From: a bacterium
GTDB lineage: Bacteria > Babelota > Babeliae > Babelales > Babelaceae
Assembly (NCBI GenBank): GCA_021827715.1
Contig: JAKAUO010000038.1
Coordinates: forward strand, 1-35,361
Direction of reading: 5' to 3'
Length of the DNA: 35,361 nt
Made by a program: the position numbers and the translations under genes. Shown one piece after another: positions 932 to 21,046 of the stretch. A model generated the notes under the pieces. It was not told the DNA's origin. It saw nothing but the letters and a program-made list of their open reading frames with translations, and ran no database searches. Every line of letters begins with the position of its first letter. Positions within the stretch are counted from its first letter, which is position 1.

Positions 932-1462
932 ATGGTCAATAATCAATTTAATTGCGCTGTTAGAATGAAAATTATTTTTTTCATCAATGTATTGGCAACA
1001 TTCTTATATATATCAAGCTCACATGCTGTGGTAGATCATAATACTTTATATCAACAATGGAATAATGCATCATTTGAAGATCAAGAGAAAATAATAATAG
1101 ATTTTTTTAAATACGCCTTTGAACCAGTAGCGCCTAATCGACAAGTAACCCTTGAACGTTTAAAAGTTATCCATGGCATAATCAATAATTCTCAATGTGA
1201 AGCTAGCGATGGACCTATGGGAACGGTATTTAAAAAAATGGTAGATGATGAGATTGAGCGTGTCACTAATACACTATATGCGAAGATACCTGAATGGTGC
1301 GGTACAGTACCCTCACATTACTTAACGGGTGATAATATTGCATTGCTCTGCACACATAAAACTTTTAGAATAAACTGGCACTCATTATTTTTCAACGACT
1401 TTGACCCAAAATCAGTATCATGCCTGACCGATAGCGATAAAATCAAATGTTCCATCCTGTAA
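932..1462 (+). CDS. Small secreted protein of unknown function
   Basis: 176 residues. The ATG at 932 has AAAGGACAGGAAT just upstream and is preferred over the in-frame ATG at 965, which has no ribosome binding site. The N-terminus (MVNNQFNCAVRMK followed by IIFFINVLATFLYISSSHA) reads as a signal peptide with a long n-region, cleaved after SSHA. The mature part is mixed charged and aromatic, probably helical at first, with several cysteines that could form disulfides in the periplasm. I recognise no family. The last 45 bases overlap, tail to tail, the end of the giant minus-strand gene, so the two 3' ends share coding sequence. It sits alone between two minus-strand fibre-like genes. Confidence 0.7.
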   Translation: MVNNQFNCAVRMKIIFFINVLATFLYISSSHAVVDHNTLYQQWNNASFEDQEKIIIDFFKYAFEPVAPNRQVTLERLKVIHGIINNSQCEASDGPMGTVFKKMVDDEIERVTNTLYAKIPEWCGTVPSHYLTGDNIALLCTHKTFRINWHSLFFNDFDPKSVSCLTDSDKIKCSIL

Positions 1463-4400
1463 CTGCTGGTAATAAGCATTTGATATGGAAAGGGCTACAC
1501 TACTTGTGCTTGGTGCCGTAGTAATAAGAATACTAGTAGCTGATGTATTTGATCCTCCTCCTGCCGTGCCCTCTGTTGTTGCTATCACTACAGGTTTAGA
1601 GCTGAAGACCGGTGTAAAATTAACGGTGACAACCCCCGTGCCCCCTGCAGCTGCGGTAAAGCCTGTCCCATAATTTATAGTAGGTGATGAAGTACCGTTT
1701 GTAGTAATATTCCCCGTTATGATACGCAAGCCAGATGCTGGATAACTTCCTACAGCATTTAAATAATTACCCGAAAGTTTATTAGGTATGGTGGCAAATT
1801 CGAGCCCAGTGGTAAATAAGCCGGTGCCGGTTACGCTTAATGCCGTTGCAGCATTTGAAGCGCCGTTCACCGTAAGCGCTGTACCAGCAGAAGGGGCCGC
1901 GATAGTGGTTGCGCCCTGCGGATTAATTGAGAGTGCGTTCTTGCCATTAGTACTTAATGCGAGCGTGTTTGCAGAGCCTGCAGATAAACCGGTATCAGTG
2001 GATCCACTAAATTGAATACTTGGCGATGTTACTGAACCAGCAGCAACAAAAAGTATTCCCGTTGTCGTCACATTTGTTGCTGCAAAGCTGCCAGAACCAT
2101 CACGTTTTACCAACGTGTTTGGTGTATCATTTGGCGTTGCCGCAGCAACCGCATTGTATGCCGTTTCAAAATTTTGCCAATCGACTCCGGTGATTAAACC
2201 AACATTATTACCAGTAACATTACCCGCATAGGGTATTGTTAAAAGATTCGTATTATTGCCAGATTGTGTATAGCCAACCACACTACCTGCTGTTGAAGTA
2301 GTCAAAAATTGTACTGGCGCTGTATTACCATTCAAGCTTTCAATGCCACCTGTTAGTGTTGTTACCCAACTGAGTTGATTGTTGCCATTATAGAACAATG
2401 CCTGATTTGTTTGTGGCACTGTTGTTGGCCAATTAAGTGTGTATGTAACATTTAATGTCTGGGCACCCAGTGAGACAGTTGCTTGCGTTGGACTTTGAAA
2501 TATTCCATATCCTGTAGTTGCCACATTAACAAACGTTGGTGATGAGGTCGGCGCAATATCTTGCGGAGTTGAAAGTATAATACTACCAGCACCATTGGCA
2601 ACATTAATTTGATTTGTAGTTCCGGCAATAGTGTTTGCTACAGGTGCAACGCCAGTTGAGCCGATAAGTATCTGCCCATTAGTTAAATTAATAGGATTAA
2701 GCGCTCCAGAGCCAGCTGAAGTAAGAATTGCATTTGCGCCCAATGATACTGCTCCAGTGCCCCCATTTCCAATCGGCAATATCCCTGTAACTTGCCCGGC
2801 AAGGTTAATATTTTGCGTAATAATATTATTACTTGCATCGAGTTGCAATGGCAATGATGCCGTTAAAAGTGGTAATTTAATATTCAGACCATTCGTAAAA
2901 ATCATCTGCGTTGCAGCAGTTGACCCTGTCCCTGATATAACATTCAGCTGTCCGGTAAGCGGTGAAGAAAGGCCCACTGTCGGTTGATTAGTAAATGAAA
3001 TGGATGGTACCGTTGCTGAACCATCAGGGGCTAAGAAGCTGTTGTCTGCAGTAATATTGTAAGCAGCAAAGCTGCCAGTGCCATCACGTACTACAATAGC
3101 ACCTGGAGTATCTGAAGATGCAATGGTAGCAAGTGAACTATTTAAGATAGTGCCCGGAGTAATATTATTATTCGTAATAAGGCCCGAAGAAATATTTCCA
3201 TTCCCAGCTGAATCTTCCATAAGAACACCATATGGCACGTTAAATGCAGGTATATTAATCGTACCACTTCCATTTATTTGTAAACGATTAACACCAGCAG
3301 TGCTGAAGGTTAAGGTATTTGGGTTTGGTACAGAAAACCCCGTTGTCGGATAATTTTTAAACGTAATACTTGGCATTGCAGCGGTGCCATCTGCCGCCTG
3401 GATAGTAACGGTTGAAATAAGCGCTGCCACATCTAACGTGGTAACATTCATGGTATTGGCTTGTACATTGCCGCCTGATATCGTGGTGCCGGCACCATCT
3501 GAAAGTGTTTGTGCTTGTACCTGCCCACTTGCCGTTAAGCTTGAAACGCTCGGGTTGCTCACTAGACCAATAGTAATAGTACCTGAACTTGGCGTGCTCA
3601 CACTGATATTGTTACCCGCTGCAAGTGAATTAAATTGCAGCGTGTTACCCGTTTTTGAGGCATAAACACCAACGCCTGTACCAATATTAGCAGCATTGGT
3701 ACCTACTGAGGGCGAGCTAAACTCAACAAAGGTAAGTGTATTGGTATCAATAGTGGCGCTTCCTGCAACATTGGTGCATATCCAGCTTGAACCGCCATAT
3801 ACGCTACCTTGCTCGATCAATGTATAGGCACCCACAGCACTTCCACCGCTGGGGAAATCAGTCGGGCGCGACCAGATACCACCATTATTAATCTGCCAAA
3901 TGCCATTATATACACCATCTGCTTGTGCGGTTAATAGCACAAGGTAATTTGTTGTTGTCGCAATACTATCAATAACGGGAAATCCATATGTTGTAGTAGG
4001 TGATACATCTACTACATTGCTGGGTGATTTAACCTGTAACCCAACAGCAACGCTATCTACATAGCTTTTATTAGTACCGTCTGTTGCATTTACTGGGGAA
4101 TTATTAATGGTAATAGCATCGGTTATGATTCTGTACCCGAATCCTGATGGCAGAGTAAGATTCCCTGAAATAGAAGCACCGCCACCGGTAACGGTAAGTG
4201 TGGTACCACTGGCTGCTTGATTGATAACAACATTACCTCCCTGATTAATGGTTAATACCGGACTATTACTCGTGTTTAGTGCCAATAGGCCAGAAGCAGC
4301 AGAAAGCCCCGTGCCAGAATATCCGGTAAAATTCAATGATGGTGCCGCAGAACTACCAGCAGGAAGCGTAAGCGCTCCGGTCATGGTGCCTCCAGAAAGA

Positions 4401-6748
4401 GGTAATTTGCTCGTAAGCTGCGTTTGAATTGAGCTTGTCACGCCACTTACATAGCCCAGCTCAGTTGCAGTAGTAGGACTTGTTTGGATAATATTACTTG
4501 CATTTGCATAAAGCGCATTACCCGCTGAACCTGCATTAAGGCTTGCGATAGCAAAATTACCATCAGTTTGCAAAAGGCTTGTCGATGCGCGATACAAGTT
4601 TGTACCAGGCGTATCATCTGACCATTCAAGCACTGCTGTAGGGTTAGTTGGTAGATGTATACCCGTTGCAGTAGGGAAATTAAGTATATTATTAAATCCG
4701 TCAATAAGATAACTTGTGTAAGTGCTTACCAATGCTTTGCCATCAGTAGTATCACTATTAGTAAACATGGTGCTTAACTGTGCCTGACTGGCCTGCTTAG
4801 TAAGCTGCCAACCACGAATATTACTCAGACCTGCGCTAGAAGGCCCAGGTATAGTACTTACTATATTTCCCGAGTAAAGTTGCACGCTGGCAGGTTGTGT
4901 GTTTTCTCCGGTCACTGCAGAAAGTTGCGCACCCATACTACTGCTTTCTACACCCAATACCGTTATATCAGCACTTTGATTAAGATACACTAGCCCTGCT
5001 GAGCCATTATAATCAGACTGATACGTTAATGCCGGTAATGTTGATTCAGCAGTGTCAATCACAATAATATCCTGGGTGATATTTGCATGCTGTCCAACAA
5101 GGGTGGCATTATTATTTGCGGCATCTGAGTAATTAAATGAAATAATACCAGGATTATTTATAATTATTTTTGAACTATTGGCCAATCCACCGATAAATGC
5201 AAGGTCAGCTTGCCCATTTACAACAATATCATTAAGTGCAGAATTTTGGATGGTAACACCAGTGGCAACGCATTGCACAGGGTTTGTGTCTCCATTGGTT
5301 CCAATGAGCAACCCATCAACAAGGTAGTTTAAACTTGAAGAGGAGAAGTTTATAATTGCACCATTACCTGATTGCAATGCTGTCCCAGTTGGAATACTGC
5401 TTAATGATATACCATTTATATTACATGCTGTTGCTTGCAATTCTGCAAAGTCTTGAGCCTCGATATTAATACCGCTATTTAAAATAAAGGTGGTACCATT
5501 CAACGCGGTGCGCGATGTCGAAGTGCATAAAATACCATTGTGATTACTGGTAAAAGAACCACCGATAATTTGAACGTTTGCATAATCTTCTATTTGAGCA
5601 CCTAAATCACAATAGAGAAGTCCTGTAGATTCAGCTATGAGTAATGATTCAGGGCCACTGACAAGTAAACCAGTATTTGCCGGCGTCGGAATAGCGCCTT
5701 GCAAACTGGTTCCAGATATAATGTGATTATAAAAAGCGCAATGGGCATTAAAAATATTAACTCCAAGAGCACAATTTTCTGTTACACAGCCATTTAAAAA
5801 GTAGTCGGAATTCCGACCACCTGTCATATAAAATCCTGTGTTACAGCGAACAATTCCAACATTATTTAAGGTTGTAGTGTTGCTTGCAGGTCCATAGGGT
5901 GGCACGGCAGGAACATTTGATGCATCAATGGCTATTCCGCACCATAGGTTAATACTATCTACAGGAGAAGTAATAGCAAAATCTTTCAGACCCGCGGTAT
6001 TAGTCACATAAAGAAATGTTTGTGTGAGGGTAAACTCGGTTAAAATAGTAGTAGTGAAAATAGTGGTTAAATATGAATCTCCTACTATCGCAATAGGCTC
6101 ACCAGTAATAGTAATAGGCCCAGAGGAAAGATCTTCTTCATAGATGCCAGCTCCAACATTAATAACAACAGGCACATCGCCCGCAGGAGTGGTGTAGTAA
6201 TTTGCATACTGAACGGCCAAGCGCAATGATGCAAAGGGGTTATTAAATGAACCATCGCCTGTCTCATCGCTGCCATTAATTGCTACATAAAGATTAAGCT
6301 CATTGCCGATATCTGACCAAGCTGTCTGGTTGACGGGAACGCCAGAAGCACGTAATAATTTCCCCGGAGTGGGCGCAGTAGCAGGAAGAGAAAAAGTATA
6401 GTTTGTCGGCACAGTGCTCGGCGCGCTTAACCCTATATAATTTCCGATACCTGAGTCATAAAGATTAAGTTGGTCCGCACTAACCGTACTCGCATCAAAG
6501 CTGCCTGTTGAATCACGCAATACTAACGTTAATGGTTTATCAGCAGATGTTGCTGTGTATAAAAGATTGTACAGCGCAGTATCAGTCAACGTGTTAATCC
6601 ATGAAAGCTGTCCACTATTATTAGTCAAGGTCATCGCTTGCCCTGATTGTCCTTGAGTAGTAGGTAATAAAATTACTGTAGAGCCTTCTTGGCTGTATAA
6701 ATGCGCTACAGATACAAAAATGGATGCCCATATTTTAAAATTTTTCAT
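1418..6748 (-). CDS. Giant secreted fibre-like protein: parallel beta-helix, phage-tail-type repeats, lectin-like C-terminus
   Basis: About 1776 residues. A GTG at 6754 also opens the frame, but AAGGG lies 8 bases before the ATG at 6748, which I prefer. A signal peptide (residues 1-19, ending HLYS) comes first. Near residue 150 the stretch LYVAINGSDETGDGSFNNPF matches the opening of DUF1565/pectate-lyase-like right-handed beta-helix proteins, and the sequence to about 570 has short solenoid-like turns. From about 800 on, copies of PS(I/L)xF...TG(L/F)S...L..ST.G...L.I...G recur (near 800, 1124, 1247 and 1574). This pattern is common in phage tail-fibre and tail-spike-like proteins. RDxTGSFxA motifs recur near 76, 1217 and 1548. 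The last 60 residues (SSKPVVIATTEG ... FDFIAIGQA) resemble the H-type lectin fold seen at fibre tips. I infer a surface fibre or adhesin; the lectin call is tentative. It could also be a phage-derived structural protein, but no other phage gene is near. Confidence 0.8.
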   Translation of the reverse strand: MKNFKIWASIFVSVAHLYSQEGSTVILLPTTQGQSGQAMTLTNNSGQLSWINTLTDTALYNLLYTATSADKPLTLVLRDSTGSFDASTVSADQLNLYDSGIGNYIGLSAPSTVPTNYTFSLPATAPTPGKLLRASGVPVNQTAWSDIGNELNLYVAINGSDETGDGSFNNPFASLRLAVQYANYYTTPAGDVPVVINVGAGIYEEDLSSGPITITGEPIAIVGDSYLTTIFTTTILTEFTLTQTFLYVTNTAGLKDFAITSPVDSINLWCGIAIDASNVPAVPPYGPASNTTTLNNVGIVRCNTGFYMTGGRNSDYFLNGCVTENCALGVNIFNAHCAFYNHIISGTSLQGAIPTPANTGLLVSGPESLLIAESTGLLYCDLGAQIEDYANVQIIGGSFTSNHNGILCTSTSRTALNGTTFILNSGINIEAQDFAELQATACNINGISLSSIPTGTALQSGNGAIINFSSSSLNYLVDGLLIGTNGDTNPVQCVATGVTIQNSALNDIVVNGQADLAFIGGLANSSKIIINNPGIISFNYSDAANNNATLVGQHANITQDIIVIDTAESTLPALTYQSDYNGSAGLVYLNQSADITVLGVESSSMGAQLSAVTGENTQPASVQLYSGNIVSTIPGPSSAGLSNIRGWQLTKQASQAQLSTMFTNSDTTDGKALVSTYTSYLIDGFNNILNFPTATGIHLPTNPTAVLEWSDDTPGTNLYRASTSLLQTDGNFAIASLNAGSAGNALYANASNIIQTSPTTATELGYVSGVTSSIQTQLTSKLPLSGGTMTGALTLPAGSSAAPSLNFTGYSGTGLSAASGLLALNTSNSPVLTINQGGNVVINQAASGTTLTVTGGGASISGNLTLPSGFGYRIITDAITINNSPVNATDGTNKSYVDSVAVGLQVKSPSNVVDVSPTTTYGFPVIDSIATTTNYLVLLTAQADGVYNGIWQINNGGIWSRPTDFPSGGSAVGAYTLIEQGSVYGGSSWICTNVAGSATIDTNTLTFVEFSSPSVGTNAANIGTGVGVYASKTGNTLQFNSLAAGNNISVSTPSSGTITIGLVSNPSVSSLTASGQVQAQTLSDGAGTTISGGNVQANTMNVTTLDVAALISTVTIQAADGTAAMPSITFKNYPTTGFSVPNPNTLTFSTAGVNRLQINGSGTINIPAFNVPYGVLMEDSAGNGNISSGLITNNNITPGTILNSSLATIASSDTPGAIVVRDGTGSFAAYNITADNSFLAPDGSATVPSISFTNQPTVGLSSPLTGQLNVISGTGSTAATQMIFTNGLNIKLPLLTASLPLQLDASNNIITQNINLAGQVTGILPIGNGGTGAVSLGANAILTSAGSGALNPINLTNGQILIGSTGVAPVANTIAGTTNQINVANGAGSIILSTPQDIAPTSSPTFVNVATTGYGIFQSPTQATVSLGAQTLNVTYTLNWPTTVPQTNQALFYNGNNQLSWVTTLTGGIESLNGNTAPVQFLTTSTAGSVVGYTQSGNNTNLLTIPYAGNVTGNNVGLITGVDWQNFETAYNAVAAATPNDTPNTLVKRDGSGSFAATNVTTTGILFVAAGSVTSPSIQFSGSTDTGLSAGSANTLALSTNGKNALSINPQGATTIAAPSAGTALTVNGASNAATALSVTGTGLFTTGLEFATIPNKLSGNYLNAVGSYPASGLRIITGNITTNGTSSPTINYGTGFTAAAGGTGVVTVNFTPVFSSKPVVIATTEGTAGGGSNTSATSILITTAPSTSSVALSISNAYYQQLQDGTFDFIAIGQA

Positions 6749-6805
6749 ACTCACTGCCCTTAATAAAATGTATATATATCATCATAATTTTTTTTAAATG
6801 ATCTA

Positions 6806-6869: not shown

Positions 6870-7736
6870 ATGATACAAAAAAGATATCTCTTTTTTCTTT
6901 TTCAATTTTTTGCACTTCAAGCACGCGAAGAAGATGATATTACCAGTAAGCAGGGAAATTTCGCCTTACCTACTTCACAACAGCCGGCGCCACTTTTCTG
7001 TTTTGGCCAAACTATTATGGATAAAGGCGATATTCAAGGGTACGCCTATGTAGATTATTTATTAAGCGACAATAGTTCATTTACTGAAGTTGTACCACAA
7101 ATATATTACGCAGTACGCGATGATCTTTGTATAGGATTTGGGCTTCCTATTGCAGCACAATTTATAATGCAAAAGCACCATTCTTCCGGCTTGCAAGATT
7201 GTATTTTACAAGCCGAATATGCATTTTATAATAATGACCACCCGACCTATGGGAATCAATTTACTTTTGTTGGCAATATAACGTTTCCTTCAGGTTCAAC
7301 CAAAAAAGATCCCGTAACGGGGCTAGGATCACCCAGCTTCTTTCTTGGAATGACAGCAAGCCATATGTCAGAAAAATGGTACCTTTTTGTATCGCCTGGA
7401 TACATTATCACTACTCCGCATGGTAATAAACATTTGGGAAATCAATGGCTCTATCAATGGGGTATCGGAAGAAATCTCTATTATACATCACAAAAAAGGC
7501 TTCTGACGCTAATTCTTGAGTTTTTCGGAACACAGGGAGGATTAGATACGTTACCCCTTAAAGCATCACAACGCTTGGGTGGTACCAATTTATTTATCGG
7601 ACCGTCGGTATGGTTTGCTACTCCAAAATATATTGTGAATGCTGGGATCGCTTTTCCGGCCATGCAAAAAGTATCACGCATAAACACAAAACATAAATTT
7701 ATTTTTGCTGCTGAAATCGGCTACAAATTTAATTAA
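6870..7736 (+). CDS. Outer-membrane beta-barrel protein, paralogue of 20141-21046
   Basis: 288 residues. The signal peptide is MIQKRYLFFLFQFFALQA, cleaved about position 18. Alternating hydrophobic and polar strands rich in Y, F and G follow, and the protein ends in GYKFN, close to the terminal aromatic signal read by the BAM machinery. The segment GNFALPTSQQPAPLFCFGQ near residue 29 is almost repeated in the product of 20141-21046 (GNLALRTSQQPAPLFCFGQ), and the two align along most of their length. This copy lacks the roughly 15-residue insertion carried by the other. Specific function, such as porin or adhesin, is unknown. The ribosome binding site is weak, but the promoter spacing agrees with this start. 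Confidence 0.8.
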   Translation: MIQKRYLFFLFQFFALQAREEDDITSKQGNFALPTSQQPAPLFCFGQTIMDKGDIQGYAYVDYLLSDNSSFTEVVPQIYYAVRDDLCIGFGLPIAAQFIMQKHHSSGLQDCILQAEYAFYNNDHPTYGNQFTFVGNITFPSGSTKKDPVTGLGSPSFFLGMTASHMSEKWYLFVSPGYIITTPHGNKHLGNQWLYQWGIGRNLYYTSQKRLLTLILEFFGTQGGLDTLPLKASQRLGGTNLFIGPSVWFATPKYIVNAGIAFPAMQKVSRINTKHKFIFAAEIGYKFN

Positions 7737-10014: not shown

Positions 10015-10347
10015 TTATTTTTTCCCTAATTGAGAGAGGTCAATATTTACAAAATGGCCATCGCGACCCACCATAAATTGATTATAGCCAAGGCTCGTTA
10101 ATATTTTATGGAATGTTTCAAGGCTATAGTTATCTTTTGCATTCGAACGCATTGCTTGCACTACAGTTGGCGAAACGCCTGCCATTTTTGCTAGCTCTCT
10201 TACTGATATTTCATCTTGAGCCATTGCCGCTAAAATCAATTCAGATAAAAGTAAGTCTTTATATTCTTGGTCAAACTTTTTTTTTTCTTTAGGGCTTAAT
10301 TTTTCAACAAATTGATCAAATGTAGATTTTTGCTTTTTTCTATTCAT
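10015..10347 (-). CDS. XRE-family antitoxin (HigA-like)
   Basis: 110 residues from ATG 10347. An in-frame ATG at 10383 is less likely because its AAGG touches the start codon, whereas AGGGAT lies 7 bases before 10347. A charged N-terminal helix (KSTFDQFVEKLSPKEKKKFD) is followed by a helix-turn-helix, about residues 45-85 (ISVRELAKMAGVSPTVVQAM), and a short C-terminal part (GYNQFMVGRDGHFVNID). It overlaps the toxin gene by 8 bases, so translation is probably coupled. Toxin-first order is typical of HigBA. It should neutralise the toxin and repress the shared promoter at 10757-10785; both roles are inferred from family and context. Confidence 0.85.
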   Translation of the reverse strand: MNRKKQKSTFDQFVEKLSPKEKKKFDQEYKDLLLSELILAAMAQDEISVRELAKMAGVSPTVVQAMRSNAKDNYSLETFHKILTSLGYNQFMVGRDGHFVNIDLSQLGKK

Positions 10348-10726
10348 AATAAGATCCCTTTTTACATCTTTGTGTGTAATCATCCTTGATTTTTAACGCC
10401 AAGTCCTTTTCCTTTGGTGGCATTTTATCTGATTTTTTATGATAGGCATTTGTGATAATAATTTTTGCTCCTTTATAGAAAAAACATAGAAATCGGTCAG
10501 GCGCTGGTTTTATTGCAAAAATTTGATCACCTTCATTGCGAAACTTTTCTTCATTAAATAAGGTTCTTCTGTTTCCTATAAGCCTGAATAAATTGAGGGT
10601 TTTCTTTTGTTGTTCTATAGGGAGGTCTTTAAAATATTCCAGAGCTTTGCTTCTTCCTCGTGGATCATAATACCATTCAAGCGTGAACTCTTCACCCTCA
10701 AAGGCTATAAAATCTACATTTATCAT
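10340..10726 (-). CDS. RelE/HigB-type toxin (Gp49-like)
   Basis: 128 residues from ATG 10726, with AAGG 10 bases upstream; a TTG two codons earlier is a less likely start. The sequence fits the HigB/Gp49 branch of the RelE superfamily: ALEYFKDLPIEQQKKTLNLF in the helical part, then LFNEEKFRNEGDQIFAIKPA, the central strands RFLCFFYKGAKIIITNAYHK and a KKSDKMPPKEKDLALKIKDD helix. Members usually cut mRNA on the ribosome. The basic residues R, K and H expected of the active surface are present. It is directly followed, with an 8-base overlap, by an XRE antitoxin. Length and order agree with an intact type II toxin-antitoxin system. Confidence 0.85.
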   Translation of the reverse strand: MINVDFIAFEGEEFTLEWYYDPRGRSKALEYFKDLPIEQQKKTLNLFRLIGNRRTLFNEEKFRNEGDQIFAIKPAPDRFLCFFYKGAKIIITNAYHKKSDKMPPKEKDLALKIKDDYTQRCKKGSYYE

Positions 10727-10756
10727 ATACAACTAACCTTTTCATAGTTTTTTATC

Positions 10757-14599: not shown

Positions 14600-16000
14600 A
14601 TGCCAACCAAATTTCTTGCGTATAAAGCACTTTTATTAGCACTATGCCCACAATTTCTTTATGCTGTCCCTGCTAACTCCGTTGTGGCAACTATTAATGT
14701 GGGAGTAACCCCTTCGGGCCTTGCAATAACGCCTGATAATAATTTCGCTTATGTGGCCAATAATAATAATTATGGGCTCCCCAATGCAGATAATGTAAGC
14801 GTATTAAATCTTACTAATAACTTGCCGGATCTTCTTATCTCCAGTACCACCTTTAATGAACCTTATACCATAACTATTAATGCTGCCGGAACTTTAGCCT
14901 ATGTAACCAATAGTAATTACACAACCGTAAGTATTATTGATATACCAAGTAACACCGTAAGTGGAATTATTACCGGCTTTGATGGGCCATCTGGCCTTGC
15001 TATAACGCCTGATGGGACCTATGCGTATGTTAATAATTATGGTGGCCCGGAAGGTGTTGGAAGTGGTAATGGAAAAACTGTCAATGTAGTAGATCTCACT
15101 AATAATACTATTGTTAAAACTATTACTGTTGACCAAGCCCCTGCAGCATTGGCAGTGTCTCCAGACGGCGATTATGTGTATGTTATTAATTATGTTAATG
15201 GCACACCTGGCAGCGGCACCATGAATGTCATACAGACCAGTGATAATACGGTAACCGGAACAGTATATGGATTTTTTGGCCCCTTTGACATTGCGATAAC
15301 GCCTGATGGAAACTATGCCTATGTTACTAACTTTGGCAGTAATAACTTTTTCCCTTTTGGGACAACCGTAAATGCAGTTGATTTAACGAGTAACACCATT
15401 ACCGCGACAATTACTCTTGGCATACAACCTGCTGGCATAGCCATTACCCCTGATGGCAACTACGCCTATGTAACTAACTATAATACCCTTTATACCTCAA
15501 CATATTTCAGCTCTTTAGTTGCAGGTCAAGGCACGGTTAATGTTATTGATATTGCAACTAATACGGTAATTCCACCAACGATAGTTGTTGATCAATCACC
15601 GGCTAATATTGCCATTTCACCAAATGGCGAATTTGCCTATGTTTCAAATTACACTTCTAATACGATCAATGTTATCGCATTGCCAACTTTTGAAATTGCA
15701 GCACAAGGATGCCAAATTCAAAATAGATATCTTACCCAGATGGATGTGATTAATAAAATCACCTGGACAGTATCCGGAACCTCACTACCGGTAAGTTATG
15801 ATGTTTATCGTGATGCCGCGCTTACAGATTTGGCGGGCACAGTGCTCATAGACGCTTTATCATTAGATGACGATGAACCGTTCGTATTATTAGATCATAA
15901 TAGAAACCCGGATATTACCTATACCTATTATATCGTGGGCACCAATAGTGTTGGCACCACATCGGAACCTGTTGCAATAACCGTCACTCAAAATTGTTAA
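14600..16000 (+). CDS. Secreted YVTN-type seven-bladed beta-propeller with a C-terminal FN3-like domain
   Basis: 466 residues. AGAGAG precedes ATG 14600. The signal peptide ends near residue 22 (FLYA). Seven repeats of the form GxxPxxxAITPDGxYAYVTNY follow, with variants such as GLAITPDNNFAYVANN, ALAVSPDGDYVYVINY and NIAISPNGEFAYVSNY, giving a seven-bladed YVTN propeller across about residues 30-365. The last 95 residues (NKITWTVSGTSLPVSYDVYR ... ITYTYYIVGTNSVG) look like a fibronectin type III domain and include a cysteine at each end (QGC, QNC). Such proteins usually sit in the periplasm or on the cell surface and bind partners. It is 9 bases upstream of a barrel gene and probably co-transcribed, so the two may work together at the envelope. 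Confidence 0.9.
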   Translation: MPTKFLAYKALLLALCPQFLYAVPANSVVATINVGVTPSGLAITPDNNFAYVANNNNYGLPNADNVSVLNLTNNLPDLLISSTTFNEPYTITINAAGTLAYVTNSNYTTVSIIDIPSNTVSGIITGFDGPSGLAITPDGTYAYVNNYGGPEGVGSGNGKTVNVVDLTNNTIVKTITVDQAPAALAVSPDGDYVYVINYVNGTPGSGTMNVIQTSDNTVTGTVYGFFGPFDIAITPDGNYAYVTNFGSNNFFPFGTTVNAVDLTSNTITATITLGIQPAGIAITPDGNYAYVTNYNTLYTSTYFSSLVAGQGTVNVIDIATNTVIPPTIVVDQSPANIAISPNGEFAYVSNYTSNTINVIALPTFEIAAQGCQIQNRYLTQMDVINKITWTVSGTSLPVSYDVYRDAALTDLAGTVLIDALSLDDDEPFVLLDHNRNPDITYTYYIVGTNSVGTTSEPVAITVTQNC

Positions 16001-20140: not shown

Positions 20141-21046
20141 TTAATTAAATGTCCAACCAGCAGTCAACACTACCTTATAGTTATCTTTATCCGCCGGATT
20201 AATCGATTGCTGAACAACAGGAATTAAGACTCCTGCCTTGAGGATAAAATGCATCGTTGAAATCCATAATGTCGGCGCTAAAGAAAACGTATTAGTTGAG
20301 GTTTTCCTAACCCCTCCTTGTTCGCCATTGGCAGTATATGAGCCAAGCATCTCAAGCATAAGCGTTATAATTTGCTTTTCAGTAAGATAGAATATATTTC
20401 TGGCAAGTCCGGCCTGATATAAAAAATTAACGCCAGGCTTAATTCCATTTTGCGGAACAGTATAATTAAGCCCGGGGGATATCCAATAATACCAATCAAT
20501 GGCACGATGGTGCGCCGTAAAGCCCATAAATAAATTAGAAGCCCCAACTCCCGTTGGTGGATTTTTTTTAGCTGATCCGGTTGCAAGCGTCAGCCCACTC
20601 ACAAGAGTAAGCTTATTTACATAGGTTAACCCTTCATGGATATAAAAACCATATTCAACCTGCGCAAAAATATCACCTACGCCAGAGGACTTAGATCCTG
20701 AAACGAGTTCAGGATGACACAAGTGATAGGATCCCACGGTCTCTTGTTTATACTTGACGGCAAAGGGAATGCCCCCTAAAAATGCGACATTATTTTCAAA
20801 GCCATACACCATACTTGGGACAAGCGAAGAAAAATATTTTTGAGAACTTGTGAGCCATTCAGGTGAAAAAAATCCCTGAATATTCCCTTTATCAACTAAA
20901 AATTGTCCAAAACAAAACAATGGCGCTGGCTGTTGCGAGGTACGTAAAGCTAAGTTGCCTTTATGAACATAGGCAACCTCTTTCTGAATAACTTTTGAAT
21001 ACAAAGAAAGAGATATAAAAAAAGAGACGAATAATAACTTTTTCAC
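20141..21046 (-). CDS. Outer-membrane beta-barrel protein carrying an in-frame palindromic insertion
   Basis: 301 residues, GTG start at 21046, no clear ribosome binding site. The signal peptide ends near LYS (residue 17). GNLALRTSQQPAPLFCFGQ (about 29-47) and most of the rest align with the product of 6870-7736, so the two are paralogues. Around residue 110, where the paralogue reads KHHSSGLQD, this protein has an additional SYHLCHPELVSGSKSSGVGD. The extra residues CHPELVSGS are the translation of a palindromic repeat (20693-20720). The reading frame is intact across it. The C-terminus is LTAGWTFN, a typical last strand. Specific transport or adhesion role unknown. Confidence 0.85.
   Translation of the reverse strand: MKKLLFVSFFISLSLYSKVIQKEVAYVHKGNLALRTSQQPAPLFCFGQFLVDKGNIQGFFSPEWLTSSQKYFSSLVPSMVYGFENNVAFLGGIPFAVKYKQETVGSYHLCHPELVSGSKSSGVGDIFAQVEYGFYIHEGLTYVNKLTLVSGLTLATGSAKKNPPTGVGASNLFMGFTAHHRAIDWYYWISPGLNYTVPQNGIKPGVNFLYQAGLARNIFYLTEKQIITLMLEMLGSYTANGEQGGVRKTSTNTFSLAPTLWISTMHFILKAGVLIPVVQQSINPADKDNYKVVLTAGWTFN
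20693..20720. repeat. Palindromic element inside a coding sequence
   Basis: ATCCTGAA and TTCAGGAT form perfect 8-base arms around a five-base centre ACGAG. A second copy, 27 of 28 bases identical, is intergenic at 31109-31136. It resembles the small palindromic elements reported in Rickettsia and other bacteria, whose translation gives HPELVSGS. Comparison with the paralogous gene shows an insertion here. Confidence 0.8.

Follow-up and report, generated by a model that had tools for sequence, protein, structure and literature searches.

A giant Sec-type protein made of phage-fibre modules, a probable fibre adhesin, in a Babeliaceae bacterium (Dependentiae)

A gene of a Babeliaceae bacterium encodes a 1776-aa protein that we judge rather likely to be a chromosomal, Sec-exported, modular fibre adhesin, probably trimeric, and a member lacking Peptidase_S74 of a mosaic family specific to the phylum. 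The original prediction, that of a cellular adhesin composed of phage fibre modules, is supported as an interpretation by the absence of phage genes and by the Sec-type N-termini described below.

The fibre gene and its setting

The stretch of DNA analysed (the window, 35,361 nt) is the start of contig C7 in a genome of 1,005,852 bases, which is split into 54 contigs and 94.5% complete. The fibre gene is intact and its frame may open at GTG (1418–6754) or at ATG (1418–6748). The latter is taken as the start, because the tetranucleotide AGGG lies 8 nt ahead of it, and the resulting chain has exactly the 1776 residues originally given. Parts of the protein are numbered from the GTG codon, and hence are shifted by +2 relative to the ATG (Table 1). 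The nearest named relatives of the fibre genes are found in contigs of 'Candidatus Babeliaceae bacterium', of the same genus, and place the host in Dependentiae/TM6 (Babelota). No family was matched by the small protein encoded at the 3' end of the gene, on the opposite strand.

Table 1. Features of the fibre gene and of adjoining DNA (aa numbered from GTG 6754)
Feature	Position	Strand	Basis or remark
Giant fibre-like gene, 1776 aa	1418..6748	-	ORF and Shine-Dalgarno
Shine-Dalgarno AGGG	6757..6760	-	8 nt before ATG 6748
Predicted Sec signal peptide, aa 3–21	6692..6748	-	sequence, hydropathy, paralogue comparison
N-terminal fibre module LLPxxQGxxGQ..LSW / LVLRDSTGSF, aa 22–117	6404..6691	-	common with paralogue C30
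Beta-helix cassette, aa 118–700, repeated unit present in other Dependentiae genomes	4655..6403	-	phylum search, alignment
Right-handed parallel beta-helix with GSDxTGDGSxxxPFxS DUF1565-like N-cap, about aa 155–540	5135..6292	-	model and family matches
PSLxF..TG fibre block, aa 805–850, directly after GGTMTG (aa 788)	4205..4342	-	motif
Phage tail-fibre / PSS2 decoration-protein-like module, aa 859–1053	3596..4180	-	similarity matches
PSITF..TG fibre block, aa 1120–1165	3260..3397	-	motif, weak cyanophage similarity
IVVRDGTGSF block, aa 1220–1235	3050..3097	-	motif
PSIQF..TG fibre block, aa 1570–1620	1895..2047	-	motif
C-terminal tip, aa 1670–1778, no S74	1421..1747	-	very weak gp53-like C-terminus similarity
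176-aa small protein, hydrophobic N-terminus	932..1462	+	overlaps fibre gene 3' end, 45 nt, opposite strand
Second fibre gene, 3' part lost at contig start	2..712	-	similarity

Other genes of the window deserve mention. A gene at 6870–7736 (+) adjoins the fibre gene divergently; it matches no Pfam family, and forms with 20141–21046 (-) a paralogous pair featuring hydrophobic N-termini and the look of outer-membrane barrels. The region 10015–10732 (-) contains a small protein and an HTH regulator, and resembles toxin-antitoxin modules of the HigBA type. At 33228–35359 (+) resides a tandem pair with hydrophobic N-termini and 'KLNCTFDSIEDGSCQPLINS'-type stretches common to both; the pair belongs to a lineage-specific family, a further member of which was found at L048:1898–2806 (-).

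Modules of the 1776-aa protein

The N-terminus, MKNFKIWASIFVSVAHLYS followed by QEG, is short and basic, then hydrophobic, as in Sec signal peptides. Its position matches the hydrophobic N-termini of the paralogues, and the signal peptide originally proposed is borne out, on hydropathy and paralogue comparison, as a predicted Sec-type N-terminus. The fibre module next to it is shared with the paralogue in contig C30 (48% over aa 11–99). Measured against 2000 shuffles, the motifs PSIxF..TG (3 observed, 0.015 expected), LVxRDxTGSF (3 observed, 0 expected) and GGTMTG (1 observed, 0 expected) are all in strong excess, and the repeated PSIxF..TG fibre blocks of the original prediction are confirmed by these counts. 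Stalk modules of phage type, including the three PSIxF..TG blocks, span aa 780–1650. The segment from aa 859 to 1053 matches phage tail fibres (E 2e-11) and the solved decoration protein of cyanophage PSS2 (9nx3, E 1.1e-6). The PSITF..TG block weakly resembles cyanophage proteins, some of which are annotated as tail fibre.

Searched as a whole against Pfam and NCBIfam, the protein matched nothing. It features neither Peptidase_S74 with the Ser/Lys dyad nor any domain known for trimerisation or outer-membrane anchoring, and the conserved helical N-domain typical of most family members is also missing. A lectin-like end, also proposed, is unsupported: PF21882 (phage gp53-like C-terminus), the sole Pfam match from segment searches, was reached by the tip at E 0.46, relatives of the tip were found neither in the PDB nor in phages or genomes of the phylum, and the single-sequence AlphaFold model of the C-terminus is uninformative (pLDDT 36.5).

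Dependentiae are intracellular, and secretion of many of their proteins has been predicted (PMC6561590, PMC4378268), which would suit an effector released into the host cytoplasm to act on host proteins. The modules are of fibre and tailspike types rather than eukaryote-like domains, none of which Pfam detects in the protein, and this role is very unlikely.

A beta-helix cassette repeated in the phylum

The cassette includes, in this order, a DUF1565-like N-cap, a beta-helix, and a conserved domain. The helix core is modelled with pLDDT >90 (AlphaFold, monomer). PF07602 (DUF1565, 6.7e-4) and PF13229 (Beta_helix, 2.8e-6) were each matched by one member among the cassette homologues, so that matches and fold model together sustain the DUF1565-like beta-helix of the original prediction. 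Phrog_4577, annotated 'tail protein', is matched by 10 of the 13 cassettes.

Searches in 101 genomes of the phylum identified the aa 118–685 unit in the fibre gene's own genome and in six others. Cassettes are full-length in five of these six, and the sixth, G019, retains the C-terminal part only. Reading frames in G077 have two (contig C44) or three (contig C27) cassette copies each, and one in G099 (contig C3) a full and a partial copy. Thirteen copies entered the alignment. No relative of the cassette was found in IMG/VR.

The helix model matches phage tailspikes, many other phage beta-helix proteins and XylC; the pneumococcal surface adhesin PfbA comes lower in the list. Tailspike depolymerases, alginate epimerases and lyases are also among the structural matches, and the beta-helix may accordingly be viewed as the catalytic, tailspike-like domain of a secreted depolymerase or glycan-cleaving enzyme, which would open polysaccharides of the host or of biofilms. 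We hold this unlikely. Along the helix body (about aa 210–485) the 13 aligned cassettes have no conserved acidic residue in common, and this speaks against a catalytic site present in all of them; the conserved acids D163, D167 and E207 sit in the N-cap region. The 1776-aa protein may still have a catalytic acid of its own. Proteins of the DUF1565 and pectate-lyase type, PfbA included, share the fold and the N-cap motif with the 1776-aa protein, but in the latter one cassette is set within a much longer fibre, and conserved catalytic acids are missing from the helix body.

Paralogues and Peptidase_S74 domains

Fibre relatives were identified in the same genome in contigs C30, C13, C23, C39, C42 and C45, and at 2–712 in the window. 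Their number is given as 6–8, because the genes in C39 and C42 and at 2–712 are cut at contig ends. Fibre genes often break at contig ends (C7, C39 and C42 in this genome, G000; C13 in the same-genus genome G001), probably at near-identical repeats that halt assembly, and gene counts are therefore lower bounds or include split genes. The 2–712 gene encodes a signal peptide, a helical-looking domain of about 100 aa, the motif KAPRIGAP, the stretch RDEYLRNLLVTG, and fibre modules. It had been regarded as a relative in the same direction, and is one: it lies on the minus strand and its product is 39% identical to the 1776-aa protein over 61 aa (E 2.5e-6).

Peptidase_S74, an intramolecular chaperone, ends five of the paralogues. 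The search for chaperone domains suggested at the outset was thus successful in these, but not in the 1776-aa protein. S74 domains occur in 15 of 34 near relatives; across the phylum 24 of the 101 genomes encode them, at most in 17 copies each. Thirteen S74 regions, when aligned, all retain the Ser and the Lys of the SxxxxK dyad. The S74 profile matches phage long tail fibre, L-shaped tail fibre and myelin regulatory factor.

Many members of the family have the helical-looking N-domain, the [KR]APR motif and the sequence YLRNLLVTG. The extended motif [KR]APR(x)nP (KAPRIGAP, RAPRPDAP, TRAPRTPIGGGRPP) is found after the helical-looking N-domain in fibre proteins from several families of the phylum, as at the N-termini of L033, L035, L043, L045, L049 and L064, and may serve as a signal for processing or sorting. 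Beta-propellers of lactonase type are encountered in two settings, free with a hydrophobic N-terminus or built as heads into S74 fibre proteins (window 14600–16000 (+); L031:5357–8428 (-); L048:8110–10530 (+); L069:6125–7453 (-)), which gives the impression of a cassette open to exchange. At L032:3411–4588 (+) an apparently decayed fibre gene was observed; its N-terminal part runs into a stop, and what is left of an S74-like C-terminus lies in another frame beyond it.

Paralogues in G001 share DNA blocks 80–92% identical beside dissimilar sequence, and contain internal duplications, both of which denote mosaic evolution. No sharing of blocks at the DNA level was found between the 1776-aa gene and the paralogues of its own genome. 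The heads vary among family members, and include YadA-head-like repeats, lactonase-type propellers and beta-helices. This variety bears on the view that the fibres do not adhere but serve as structural material, either shed as a matrix or coating the surface. The 1776-aa protein is rich in T, S, G, A and N and has few charges, its stalks are long and repetitive, and an obvious anchor is missing, all of which would suit a coat; heads and tips which are varied (differing ends included) and recombined fit binding instead, and a purely structural role seems to us quite improbable.

Phage genes and export

Phage genes for heads or packaging flanking the fibre gene, or lack of export, would have spoken against an adhesin used by the cell. 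None of the former are found in the window, where the neighbours of the fibre gene include no structural phage families; Sec-type N-termini are predicted for the 1776-aa protein and for its full-length paralogues. In 34 genomes (the fibre gene's own and 33 relatives) neither an HK97-type capsid nor a terminase over cut-off was identified, terminase-type matches below cut-off being present in four relatives, and the genome of the fibre gene has no tail sheath. With no capsid, no large terminase over cut-off and no sheath in that genome, prophage, tailocin and contractile injection system were discarded. One relative features a phage-sheath-like match just over cut-off (G025:C5:184–624 (-)), which may point to a contractile injection system in another part of the phylum.

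That the gene is a prophage or prophage-remnant tail fibre or tailspike is suggested by its sequence likeness to such proteins, and is nevertheless highly improbable. Besides the missing virion genes and the Sec-type N-termini, the neighbours of fibre genes are housekeeping or envelope genes (groEL, bamA, ftsI-like, cysS-like and secA, named from translations), and relatives of neither the 1776-aa protein nor the family N-domain, nor indeed of the cassette, are found among IMG/VR viral contigs. Plasmids yielded one weak module match.

The BamA-like gene denotes an outer membrane. Two secretins are encoded in the genome, and secretins occur in 33 of 34 relatives. The YadA C-terminal anchor is found in 0 of 34 genomes, and type Vc autotransporters were excluded on this ground. 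Trimeric autotransporter adhesins of this type (YadA) resemble some paralogues in the YadA-head-like repeats, but differ in having the anchor that this genome and its 33 relatives lack.

Discussion

Phage S74 fibres and tailspikes (T5 L-shaped fibre, endosialidase type) share with the Dependentiae proteins the stalk modules, the right-handed beta-helix and, in the paralogues, S74. In contrast to them, the 1776-aa protein is Sec-type, chromosomal, free of accompanying virion genes, and has no S74. A closer parallel is provided by the MAT superfamily of Bdellovibrio bacteriovorus, made by 21 paralogues, 13 with and 8 without S74 (Caulton et al. 2024, PMC10769870). MAT fibres are displayed at the surface and have varied tips, and immediately behind their signal peptide comes a common beta-rich domain of about 130 aa (PMC10769870). 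Both sets consist of long, modular, phage-fibre-like proteins, exported in Bdellovibrio and predicted to be so in Dependentiae, with many chromosomal paralogues, beta-helix segments, S74 and non-S74 groups and diversified tips, in bacteria that enter other cells. Instead of the beta-rich domain, most Dependentiae members have the helical-looking domain of about 100 aa, [KR]APR and YLRNLLVTG; in the 1776-aa protein, which begins with a fibre module, neither type of N-domain is apparent. Targets would be protists, not bacteria, and in PDB searches none of the solved MAT tips was matched by sequence. A parallel in the way of working is well supported as an analogy; we claim no homology, since most Dependentiae members have a different-looking N-domain.

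For these fibres we infer export, trimerisation, surface display, binding and a host target, in the following order. The protein would be exported by Sec through its N-terminal signal peptide, and may cross the outer membrane by a secretin of T2SS/T4P type, given that secretins are present. Three chains would then wind into a long trimeric fibre, with phage-type stalks and a right-handed beta-helix segment; the S74 paralogues would fold and cut themselves by the Ser/Lys chaperone-protease, the dyad of which is conserved. The variable head or tip would point outward and bind glycans or proteins at a surface, most likely that of the protist host. Cassette duplication and recombination among paralogues, to which the shared blocks point, would diversify the repertoire. 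An obligate intracellular bacterium may also employ such fibres within the host cell instead of for attachment.

To our knowledge there is no account of how intracellular Dependentiae recognise protists. Among the papers searched none joins Dependentiae with tail fiber, and in a word search the genome papers on Babela (PMC4378268) and Chromulinavorax (PMC6561590) mention neither adhesin nor fibre. The putatively exported, mosaic and phylum-specific family of phage-fibre type supplies concrete candidates for this recognition. The present analysis adds the taxon, the phylum-wide family, S74 chaperones in sister genes, duplication of the beta-helix cassette, and the likeness to MAT fibres. After Bdellovibrio, this would be a second and apparently separate case of a cell-invading bacterium whose own surface proteins are fibres of phage type. 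More tentatively, and with some doubt, a recombining MAT-like repertoire specific to the phylum, with its own N-terminal attachment domain, the [KR]APR motif for sorting and duplicated beta-helix cassettes, might set which protists each lineage can infect. If this were true, the repertoire would be the missing host-recognition system of the Dependentiae.
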